Position numbers and translations under genes: made by a program
Part shown: positions 35,347 through 38,028 of the stretch, one piece after another
Position numbering within the stretch: position 1 is the stretch's first letter
Layout: each line of letters starts with the position of its first letter
From: Roseiflexus sp.
Lineage (GTDB): Bacteria; Chloroflexota; Chloroflexia; Chloroflexales; Roseiflexaceae
NCBI GenBank assembly: GCA_017743475.1
Contig: JAGHYV010000035.1
Coordinates: forward strand, 1-45,156
DNA: 45,156 nt
Direction: 5' to 3'
Notes under the pieces: generated by a model
The model's database searches: none
Seen by the model: the letters and a program-made list of their open reading frames with translations, nothing else
What the model was told of the DNA's origin: nothing

Positions 35347-36156
35347 ATGGATCCTATCAACCAGCGTATTGGTGATATGCTCGCTCGCATTCGCGCGACC
35401 AAACCATTGATCCACCATATTACCAATCTGGTTGTCATGAACGATACCGCGAATGTAACCTTGCACGTTGGCGGATTGCCGGTCATGGCGCATGATGCGG
35501 GAGAAGTCGCCGAGATGGTGGCACATGCCGGAGCGTTGGTGCTGAATGTCGGTACGCTTTCGCCCGACTGGATCGAGTCGATGCTGATCGCTGGTCGGCG
35601 CGCAAACGAACTCCAGACGCCGGTGGTGCTTGACCCGGTAGGAGCAGGCGCAACCCAGCTCCGCACCAGGACGAATCTTGAGTTGCTGCACTCGTTGCGG
35701 ATCGCCGTGGTGCGCGGCAATGGTGGCGAGATCGGCGCGCTGAGCGGTGAGGGCGGCGAGGTGAAAGGCGTGGAGAGCGTAGCTGGACCGGAAGACCCGT
35801 TGACGGCAGCGCGTCGTCTGGCGCAGACGTATCACACAGTTGTGGCGTTGACCGGCGCGCGCGACATTATTACCGACGGCGAGCGTGTCCTTACAGTCAA
35901 CAATGGTCACATCTGGCTGACAACGCTGACCGGCACCGGATGTATGGCAACGACAATGGTTGCGGCATTTGCGGCGGTCGAGCGTGATTATCTGCTGGCA
36001 GCGGCTGGCGGGCTGGCAATGTTTGGACTAGCGGCGGAACTGGCTGCCGAAAAGGCGTACGGTCCCGCCAGTTTCAAAGTTGCGCTGTTCGACCAGATCT
36101 ACAACCTTACGCCGGAACAGGTGGCGGCTGGCGCACGGGTTGTGGAAGGTGGTTGA
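35347..36156 (+). CDS. thiM: Hydroxyethylthiazole kinase
   Basis: This 269-residue ribokinase-like enzyme phosphorylates salvaged hydroxyethylthiazole using ATP. The ATG at 35347 has AAGGAGG 10 bp upstream. Typical ThiM features are LIHHITNLVVMNDTAN (about 21-36), LPVMAHDAGEVAEM, LDPVGAGAT (about 94-102) and the catalytic-cysteine region LTGTGCMAT (about 195-203). Length is normal. It follows thiE on the same transcript. The next gene of the pathway, thiD, is now separated from it by the decayed RAYT transposase. Confidence 0.95.
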   Translation: MDPINQRIGDMLARIRATKPLIHHITNLVVMNDTANVTLHVGGLPVMAHDAGEVAEMVAHAGALVLNVGTLSPDWIESMLIAGRRANELQTPVVLDPVGAGATQLRTRTNLELLHSLRIAVVRGNGGEIGALSGEGGEVKGVESVAGPEDPLTAARRLAQTYHTVVALTGARDIITDGERVLTVNNGHIWLTTLTGTGCMATTMVAAFAAVERDYLLAAAGGLAMFGLAAELAAEKAYGPASFKVALFDQIYNLTPEQVAAGARVVEGG

Positions 36157-36194
36157 GGGTTGAGGGAACCATTCGTGTCGTTGAGATGCCAGGG

Positions 36195-37005
36195 TTACGG
36201 TGCATGTCCAGAGCCGTGCTGATCGTCGTGCTGCCGGAGCATGTCCCAGATTTCCCGTGCTAACGGATCGTCACCGATACGGTGGATGTTCTTGCTGTCG
36301 AGATGCCAGCGTCGGGGATTGTCTGCAATGTAGCGTCGAGTGGCATTCAGGGCGCGGTCGGTGCGGATAATGTGTTCATAGTAATTGCGTTGCCAGACGG
36401 GTGCACCCGGCGTATTGCGCATGATGTTGATCGCCGGATAACGACCGATTTGAATGACCGGATGATGGCACCCAACGAACCGGGAACGACGTTGGTTTGG
36501 TGTAGCGCCACGGATGGCGCGTCCGGCAGACGTTGGGGCGGCGCCGGGTGGAAATGTGGTGGGGGCGCAGCAGGTAGGGGCGCAGCACCGCTGCGCCCCT
36601 ACGGTGCCGCCACGGGACCGGTCGCCATCATTATCGGACCCGTCGCCATTATCGCGGGGCGTACCGCCGTCAGATCCGTCGTCGCGGGCATCGCTGCCAT
36701 TGTCAACACAATCATTGCCGTTGTCGTTCCCCACAATCCAAATGATGCCATGGATTGTGGTTGGGCATCACCACAAATTCATCGAGGTTTAATACCACGT
36801 ATGGACGCACAACAGCGGTTTGGAACCATTCGGCACGAACGATTTCGCCGCATTCGTTCAATTGCATACCACCATCTACCACTTGCCCAAACAAATGCGC
36901 CCATTTATGCGTGCAGAGGGTAACGAAATACGCAGCGGGTTGGGTATAATCATGCCCTTTGAGGCGGATGGAACGGCGGTGATGAATTCTGCGATTGTAT
37001 GGCAT
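36195..37005 (-). pseudogene. RAYT/Y1-type REP-associated transposase, frameshifted
   Basis: The minus strand encodes a tyrosine transposase of the IS200/RAYT group in two frames. The first frame (from 37005) has RRSIRLKGHDYTQPAAYFVT, LFGQVVDGGMQLNECGEIV and VVMPNH. The second frame (to 36195) has the tyrosine block PVWQRNYYEHIIRT and YIADNPRRWHLD. The family normally reads MPNHIHGIIW here, with the HUH metal motif. A single extra A at 36755-36756 changes the reading straight after MPNH, destroying HUH. Between the domains lies an unusual low-complexity stretch rich in Asn, Asp and Gly, and a perfect palindrome at 36574-36602. It interrupts the thiM-thiD cluster in opposite orientation. Confidence 0.85.
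36574..36602. repeat. REP-like perfect palindrome inside the RAYT gene
   Basis: GTAGGGGCGCAGC (36574-36586) and GCTGCGCCCCTAC (36590-36602) form a perfect 13-bp stem with a 3-nt loop. This shape and composition are typical of repetitive extragenic palindromes mobilised by RAYT enzymes. Here it lies within the coding frame and stays open as ...AQRCCAPTCCAPT. Confidence 0.8.
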
Positions 37006-37224
37006 GGCTTAATCCTTCCTTATTGAAGCGACTCCGCCGGATCACCCATGATCGTCACGTCGCTTCTACGCTGTTTATACCGTTCTGGTAATTGCAGAGG
37101 GTACCTGATGATCAATGCTGGAGTTGCACACCACTGGGAAACTATTGGGTGCGCTGGAAAGACCGGGCGCTTGTCAGCGCAACCCTATTCGTAATGATGC
37201 TCATGATGCTGTGAGGAGGCGCAC

Positions 37225-38028
37225 ATGATACCGCGAGCATTGACGATTGCCGGTTCCGACTCGGGCGGCGGCGCTGGCATCCAGGCAGACCTGAAAACAT
37301 TCATGGCGCATGGGGTCTACGGCGCCAGCGCGATCACCGCTATCACTGCTCAAAACACAGTCGGCGTACATGCCGTGCTCATGCTTGAACCATCACTTGT
37401 TGTCGCGCAAATCGAGGCAGTGCTCGACGACATCGGCGCCGATGCGGTCAAAACTGGCATGCTGGGGAACGCTTCCATTATCCAGGCGGTTGCCGACACG
37501 CTGGAGCGATACCGGGTCGAGCATCTAGTGATCGACCCGGTGATGGTTGCGAAGAGTGGTGCGCGCCTGCTCGAAGAAGATGCTATTACCACGCTGCGTG
37601 CGCGGCTGTTGCCACTGGCGCTGGTAGTGACGCCGAACCTGCCAGAAGCGTCGGTGCTGTTGAATCGCCCGGTGACCGACGAACGCGATATGCAGGATGC
37701 TGCGCGCGATCTCCACACACTCGGACCACGGTATGTGTTGCTGAAGGGAGGGCACCTGTCGGGGAGCGATGTCGTTGATCTGCTGTACGACGGCGAGCGT
37801 TTTGTCACACTGCGCGCACCGCGCCTGGAAACGAACCATACTCATGGCACCGGTTGCACCTACGCTGCTGCCATTGCCGCACTGATCGCGCGCGGTCTAC
37901 CGGTCGAACAGGCGATTCGTCAGGCGCATGCCTATCTCCACGATGCTATCGTCCACGCACCAGCGATCGGCAAAGGATACGGACCGGTCAACCATCTGGT
38001 GTACGGATTGCCGGTCAGTCGCGGGTAG
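37225..38028 (+). CDS. thiD: Hydroxymethylpyrimidine/phosphomethylpyrimidine kinase
   Basis: This 267-residue ribokinase-family enzyme phosphorylates HMP twice to give HMP-diphosphate, the partner substrate of ThiE. GAGGAGG lies 8 bp before the ATG. Signature blocks are [21 protein letters not shown] (quoted in part as [20 protein letters not shown]), [52 protein letters not shown] and the C-terminal catalytic [21 protein letters not shown] (quoted in part as [16 protein letters not shown]). With ThiE and ThiM this completes salvage and coupling; no thiC or thiG is in the window. Confidence 0.95.

Follow-up and report, generated by a model that had tools for sequence, protein, structure and literature searches.

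Remains of a RAYT gene with an internal REP-type palindrome in Roseiflexus, and covariation of REPs with the alphaC/alpha3 segment among its homologues

One trait of TnpA-REP subclass 2.4, according to the excerpts of Quentin et al. 2018 (PMC6006769), is that a REP lies in frame in the part of the gene that separates the HuH motif from the Tyr motif. The locus described here lies in a 45,156-nucleotide stretch of a Roseiflexus sp. genome (contig JAGHYV010000035.1, hereafter the window). A reading made from the sequence alone had considered that the in-frame self-insertion of a REP into its RAYT gene would be a notable arrangement; since the trait was already in print for the subclass, the arrangement is of a known kind and, with the window copy broken as well, it is modest as a finding. 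The homologues that we analyzed resemble subclass 2.4, as excerpted, in their in-frame REPs between the HuH and Tyr motifs, their variable beta3-alphaC insert and their double-foot REPs of the form GTAG...CTAC. By contrast, frame breaks interrupt the window copy, and the compared stretch shows no REP on either side of it. The variable insert and the REP do lie, as in the subclass, between its HuH motif and its Tyr motif, though the frame is not continuous, and the probable assignment of this copy to subclass 2.4 rests on the insert and the motifs. The covariation of REPs with alphaC and the REP swaps reported below were not found in the excerpts of Quentin et al. (PMC6006769).

Two further systems are related. 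GTAG REPs have been described within other genes (PMC3733652, in part), and the REPs studied here resemble these GTAG-tagged REPs in having a GTAG foot, a palindromic stem and dispersed copies, some of them inside genes; the internal copy of the window has a foot on both sides, whereas most copies in the genome have it on one side only. In the E. coli TnpA-REP (structure 4er8), helix alpha3 binds DNA and its residue K82 contacts the hairpin, as stated in the available part of PMC8266576. The RAYTs analyzed here are similar to this protein in their HuH and Tyr motifs, as judged by profile search, and the DNA-binding alpha3 probably occupies the place of the covarying segment; the E. coli protein differs in belonging to another subclass, in its bulged REP and in the lack of a loop insert.

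The palindrome and the RAYT remains around it

The palindrome occupies positions 36574-36602 (no strand assigned) and consists of GTAGGGGCGCAGC-ACC-GCTGCGCCCCTAC, i.e. two perfect 13-bp arms separated by a 3-nt loop. It combines a palindromic stem with a GTAG foot at either end, which bears out the REP-type, 13-bp-stem palindrome seen by the sequence-only reading. No other perfect stem reaches 13 bp (loop of at most 8) anywhere in the window, and none occurred in 100 windows simulated by a first-order model that preserves the dinucleotide frequencies. The minus strand, taken as single-stranded DNA, is computed to fold into exactly this hairpin (-17.4 kcal/mol, z -4.1). A 15-bp half copy of the REP, at 36558-36572 (no strand assigned), abuts the palindrome and matches 36573-36587 at 93%; the palindrome and this half copy are the only places in the window where GTAGGGGCGCAGC is found with at most one mismatch. 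The interval 36150-37230 contains no further REP-like inverted repeat, and a REPtron, in which a RAYT is flanked by REPs, is not what is observed here.

Around the palindrome lie the remains of a RAYT (TnpA-REP) gene, on the minus strand, with its start codon at 37005. Its conserved parts are spread over three frames, with breaks near 36760, at about 36574-36547 and at 36431. The N-terminal part, MPYN...VVMPNH, is read in a first frame (36757-37005, minus strand, within the ORF 36712-37005). A second frame contains HGIIWIVG, the palindrome and, between the HuH motif and the latter, a stretch rich in Asn, Asp and Gly (36606-36734, minus strand), so that the proximity of the palindrome to such a stretch, pointed out earlier, is confirmed. 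The segment with NVVPGSLGAIIRSFKSVVIRR, which corresponds to helix alphaC/alpha3, is read in a third frame (36431-36547, minus strand), and the C-terminal part, INIMRNTPGAPVWQRNYYEHIIR...YIADNP, is again in the second frame up to the stop codon (36195-36431, minus strand). The ORF 36195-36734 (minus strand) runs open across the palindrome; the N-terminal third of the RAYT, to VVMPNH, is in a frame other than that of this ORF, and the helix segment GSLGAIIRSFKSVVIRR is in the third frame, which is closed within the palindrome by a TAG stop. As the conserved parts occupy three frames, the palindrome is open only inside the fragment 36195-36734. The earlier statement that it lies inside a RAYT coding sequence and keeps the reading frame is therefore correct for a RAYT-like gene and for this fragment, but not for the gene as a whole, which is frameshifted and of which only remains are left.

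Both motifs of the Y1 transposase core are present: the HuH motif as MPNH and HG, with a frame break between them, and the Tyr motif as YIADNP. The N-terminal part is 68-73% identical to intact RAYTs having both motifs. The RAYT fragments gave no match in Pfam, and both stayed below threshold with the NCBIfam REP-associated transposase profile (14.8 and 28.9 bits for a cut-off of 80 bits). With three frame breaks instead of an intact single reading frame, the locus is the remains of a RAYT gene and no working RAYT.

The flanks of the locus, thiM and thiD, are about 95% identical to those of a same-genus genome, G166, in which an operon encoding ThiW, an ABC ATPase and CbiQ/EcfT-like proteins lies between the two genes. 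Homology of the window to G166 ends at 36154 and restarts at 37126, inside the 3' end of the EcfT-like gene. All RAYT remains fall within 36155-37125 (minus strand), for which the syntenic thiM-thiD interval of G166 has no homologous sequence; they thus occupy the place of the G166 transporter operon. Over 36155-37214 the ThiW/ECF transporter operon of G166 is absent except for an 89-bp remnant of the 3' end of the EcfT/CbiQ-like gene, whole in G166 (37126-37214, plus strand, the end coordinate being taken from the alignment).

REPs and RAYTs elsewhere in the genome and the phylum

The exact palindrome is present as a single copy in its genome, but its family is not unique: 31 dispersed sites lie within three mismatches of it, many of them with the foot on one side only, and the reversed-pattern control gave 0. 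The idea that a unique palindrome is no REP was ruled out on this ground, and the palindrome is the RAYT's own REP by type though not as an exact copy. In a phylum sample, the pattern was present exactly in 13 of 400 genomes.

We searched six genomes of the genus for the single-foot form, allowing up to one mismatch (control 0 throughout). Forward/reverse matches amounted to 14/18 in the window's genome, 38/59 in G166, 2/1 in G400 and 0/2 in G395; G323 and G335 had none. The abundant REP types of the genus tend to agree with the type inside the resident RAYT, as seen in G166, G400 and G395. Indeed, GGGGCACGGC, which is the REP type that the RAYTs of G166 and G400 have inside, gave 31 forward matches in G166 and 13 in G400, as compared with 4 in the genome of the window, a single one in G323 and 0 in G395 and G335. 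The GACCC type, found inside a RAYT of G395 (locus L010) and searched as a prediction, gave forward/reverse matches in G395 (4/9), G400 (2/2) and G335 (2/1), and 0 in the window's genome, G166 and G323. Against this tendency, G166 is rich in GCAGC-type REPs, yet has no known RAYT with that REP inside. Near positions 2352110, 2875976, 4868693 and 5106338 of its contig C1, GCAGC-type REPs form regularly spaced arrays.

The N-terminal part of the window RAYT was matched in 99 of the 400 phylum genomes. We took 128 of 154 loci for reading, the 26 left out being window duplicates, own-genome matches, synteny stretches and own-genome palindrome sites; 61 intact rows were kept and 67 had no intact ORF by motifs, many of these being no RAYT loci. 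A later set of 59 new loci gave 18 intact rows, 5 with a usable REP. In 40 of the 61 intact homologues, a palindrome with a stem of at least 10 bp lies in the loop that connects the HuH and Tyr motifs; the stem reaches at least 12 bp in 36. The loops of the 21 homologues outside these 40 lack any stem of at least 10 bp. Stem-12 palindromes have a density of 2.72 per kb in the loop versus 0.13 per kb for the remainder of the core, and the tags of the internal palindromes fall in the two open frames (25 and 7). The comparison of homologues proposed by the sequence-only reading thus gave a mixed result: some lack the palindrome, and the carriers share the site while their REPs differ in sequence. 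Three homologues (L009, L037 and L207) have the GCAGC arms of the window in the same loop. Another, L006, which is 72% identical to the N-terminal part of the window RAYT, has the window's exact REP upstream of the gene and a GACCC REP inside.

Internal and flanking REPs of the same gene match each other: their mean longest common string was 12.5 versus 7.3 (23 loci, 0 of 20,000 shuffles), and 14.2 versus 8.3 when only REP-type flanks were considered (17 loci, 0 of 20,000 shuffles). This string-based comparison replaced an earlier, tag-anchored one (15 loci, 1 of 5000 shuffles), in which footless flanks were out of register. REP type can nevertheless switch wholesale between close RAYTs. L007 and L008 are 94% identical at the DNA level in the N part and 88% in the C part as against 53% in the loop, and L010 and L047 are 92%, 83% and 52% identical, respectively; in both pairs the REPs are wholly different. 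On a tree of the 61 homologues, many forks of which are poorly supported, REP type is partly clustered (30 changes versus a shuffled mean of 38.1, 0 of 200).

The RAYT loop often also has in-frame low-complexity repeats, comparable to the Asn/Asp/Gly-rich stretch and the half copy of the window. In G150, the loop of L098 has VGAKN many times, with the half-REP in tandem, and that of its near-copy L096 only a few; the loop of L047 (G400) has PTRADHIPEI-type repeats and that of L109 and L113 TNGV repeats, both as in-frame tandem arrays. Plasmid searches gave few relatives, and searches of PHROGs with L009 and L037 gave no match.

Elsewhere in the window's genome, the REP-associated transposase profile matches only once, in a whole RAYT within an open frame of 1326 residues on contig C142 (L167:4538-8491, plus strand). 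Its host is HmaB according to PADLOC (1127.5 bits, in two stretches either side of the RAYT), with a Cas10-like gene and HmaA (1679 bits) as neighbours. A search of 158 genomes of the class for this RAYT gave 11 matches, of which 5 are whole RAYT domains nested in frame within defence DNA methylases, in open frames of more than 1280 residues: the C142 HmaB, two further HmaB that have it at a different site, and two Eco57I-type IIG methylases, which makes HmaB hosts in three genomes at two sites and IIG hosts in two genomes. Besides the C142 frame, these are L180:3159-6995 (minus), L181:2800-6855 (minus), L182:3403-7947 (plus) and L183:2832-7490 (minus). All five nested RAYTs keep MPNHVH and the YI.ENP motif, and that of G061 is bordered by in-frame GTAG-type inverted repeats. 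The nested RAYTs of G206 and G375 are 73% identical (pN 0.15, synonymous differences saturated), and the last 450 residues of their hosts 66%. Nesting of a RAYT in a methylase was not found in the portions of the literature searched; a few long fusion proteins were discarded by Quentin et al., as the excerpts report (PMC6006769).

Covariation of REPs with the alphaC/alpha3 segment

When overall similarity was controlled for, the stretch that best tracked the similarity of REP arms was the start of the helix following the insert, PGSLGAIIRAFKS. The best 9-residue window had a partial r of 0.58, the maximum of 300 permutations being 0.24 (36 loci), and a smaller rise, of about 0.3, was observed at the end of the preceding helix. 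With segments fixed, the internal REPs of 43 loci gave 0.44 for alphaC (0/1000), 0.30 for its continuation (0/1000), 0.17 for the end of the preceding helix (0/1000) and -0.10 for the HuH segment. The flanking REPs of 28 loci gave 0.36 for alphaC (0/1000), -0.12 for the HuH segment and a weak 0.17 for the C-terminal segment (8/1000), the end of the preceding helix being not significant for these REPs (0.02, 323/1000). All measures were picked after inspection of the training rows, and the distance-matrix permutation behind these values does not fully remove relatedness. The median distance to the REP is about 10 codons for the HuH segment and about 18 for alphaC; since the HuH segment is nearer and yet without signal, linkage alone is no explanation.

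A test with held-out loci used looser motifs, which gave 60 rows (32 from the 36 training loci and 28 held out). The nearest alphaC neighbour predicted the REP apex of the held-out loci with a score of 8.0 versus 4.9 after permutation (0/2000, n=28); scoring was mechanical, but most held-out rows had been inspected beforehand for their helix motif and REP. The N-terminal part was somewhat predictive too (6.7), alphaC being better in 15 of the 28 loci and worse in 9. Candidate pairings between alpha3 and REP, with exceptions, would be GQ before FK with CCCGNCGGG, AG with CGGCCG, GA with TTCGCGAA and LPEIVR with GGGTTTGAAACCC. L165, L219 and L244 are counter-examples, with an alphaC start like that of the window and a different REP. 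In L165 and L244 (G323 and G395) the alphaC start is almost that of the window, and the REP is of the GTAGAGACGTTGCA... type.

A profile of 12 RAYTs finds the E. coli TnpA-REP structure 4er8 (E 1.4e-05). Compared with solved structures on its own, a nested RAYT gave a weak TnpA-REP match (E 0.0042), in which its helix aligns with the alpha3 region of 4er8; L009 on its own found no TnpA-REP among them. The probable equivalence of 4er8 alpha3 and alphaC rests on the nested-RAYT alignment and on the order of the elements. Comparison of the relatives suggests that alpha3 reads the hairpin.

Interpretation of the internal REP

The reading that we favor, with a probability of about 0.7 for the joint claim, is that the window contains a decaying subclass 2.4 RAYT that already had its cognate REP, and that the internal REP is a target placed near the alpha3 reader. 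The double-foot REP would already have been in the surface loop between HuH and alpha3. In intact relatives, it would be read through as a tolerated linker, in one of its two stop-free frames, and would be a genuine substrate of the encoded enzyme. Since only about 18 codons separate it from the point where the alpha3 FK motif begins, recombination in the REP-alpha3 stretch may exchange REP and helix together, and target and reader would often be co-inherited as a cassette. In the window's genome, the enzyme gene would have lost its frame while REP-like copies remain.

A serious competitor, to which we give somewhat worse than even odds, is that the internal REP is a neutral passenger: the loop would tolerate any REP, the REP would have no role, and its likeness to the flanks would reflect the REPs that are around. 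Indeed, the loop is variable and peripheral in the published model (excerpts of PMC6006769), it also houses other low-complexity repeats, and REPs are known within unrelated genes (PMC3733652, in part). Neutrality covers the site, the frame and the flank match, but does not by itself account for the covariation of REP and alphaC, which is seen for flanking REPs too. It is compatible with alpha3 reading REPs generally, so that only the notion of a target carried within is at stake; even a mere passenger inside the gene would leave the alpha3 signal valid for REPs as a whole.

It is unlikely that the gene is intact and that its frame breaks stem from errors of sequencing or assembly. The genome is a draft in 206 contigs, and part of the breaks could be assembly errors; however, three breaks occur within about 0.8 kb, none of them at long homopolymers, and the thiM- and thiD-like ORFs next to the gene show no interruption across their Pfam domains. 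The wholeness of these neighbours favors real decay rather than poor sequence, but is no proof of it.

It seems quite unlikely that the internal hairpin is an autoregulatory site on the RAYT mRNA or gene, acting through transcript structure or enzyme binding: the hairpin is strong, has a fixed place and matches the REP type of the enzyme, but it is absent from about a third of the intact homologues (21/61). Finally, it is very improbable that, as the sequence-only reading proposed, this RAYT recently inserted a REP of its genome in frame into the gene that encodes it. Near copies are dispersed in the genome, and 21 of the 61 homologues have no internal palindrome. However, 36 of the 61, in other genomes, have a REP at this very site; three homologues share the GCAGC arms, and two of these, L009 and L037, are close to being cases of the same REP at that site in other species. 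The surrounding gene is frameshifted, and the trait is published for the subclass, so that the insertion is no event special to the window gene.

The favored reading, that of a cognate target near its reader, has a further extension, which we regard as tentative and a little short of an even bet. The internal REP would be the enzyme's own target label, the REP and the alpha3 codons would form an exchangeable specificity cassette in which target and reader travel together, and a partial alpha3-to-hairpin code could be read from internal REPs.

Intact relatives seem to carry a copy of their own DNA target near the reading helix, which bears on how RAYTs choose their REP, and one recombination step may be enough to alter REP specificity. 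If the cassette reading is true, a RAYT that enters a new genome would itself contain the founding copy of its REPs there.
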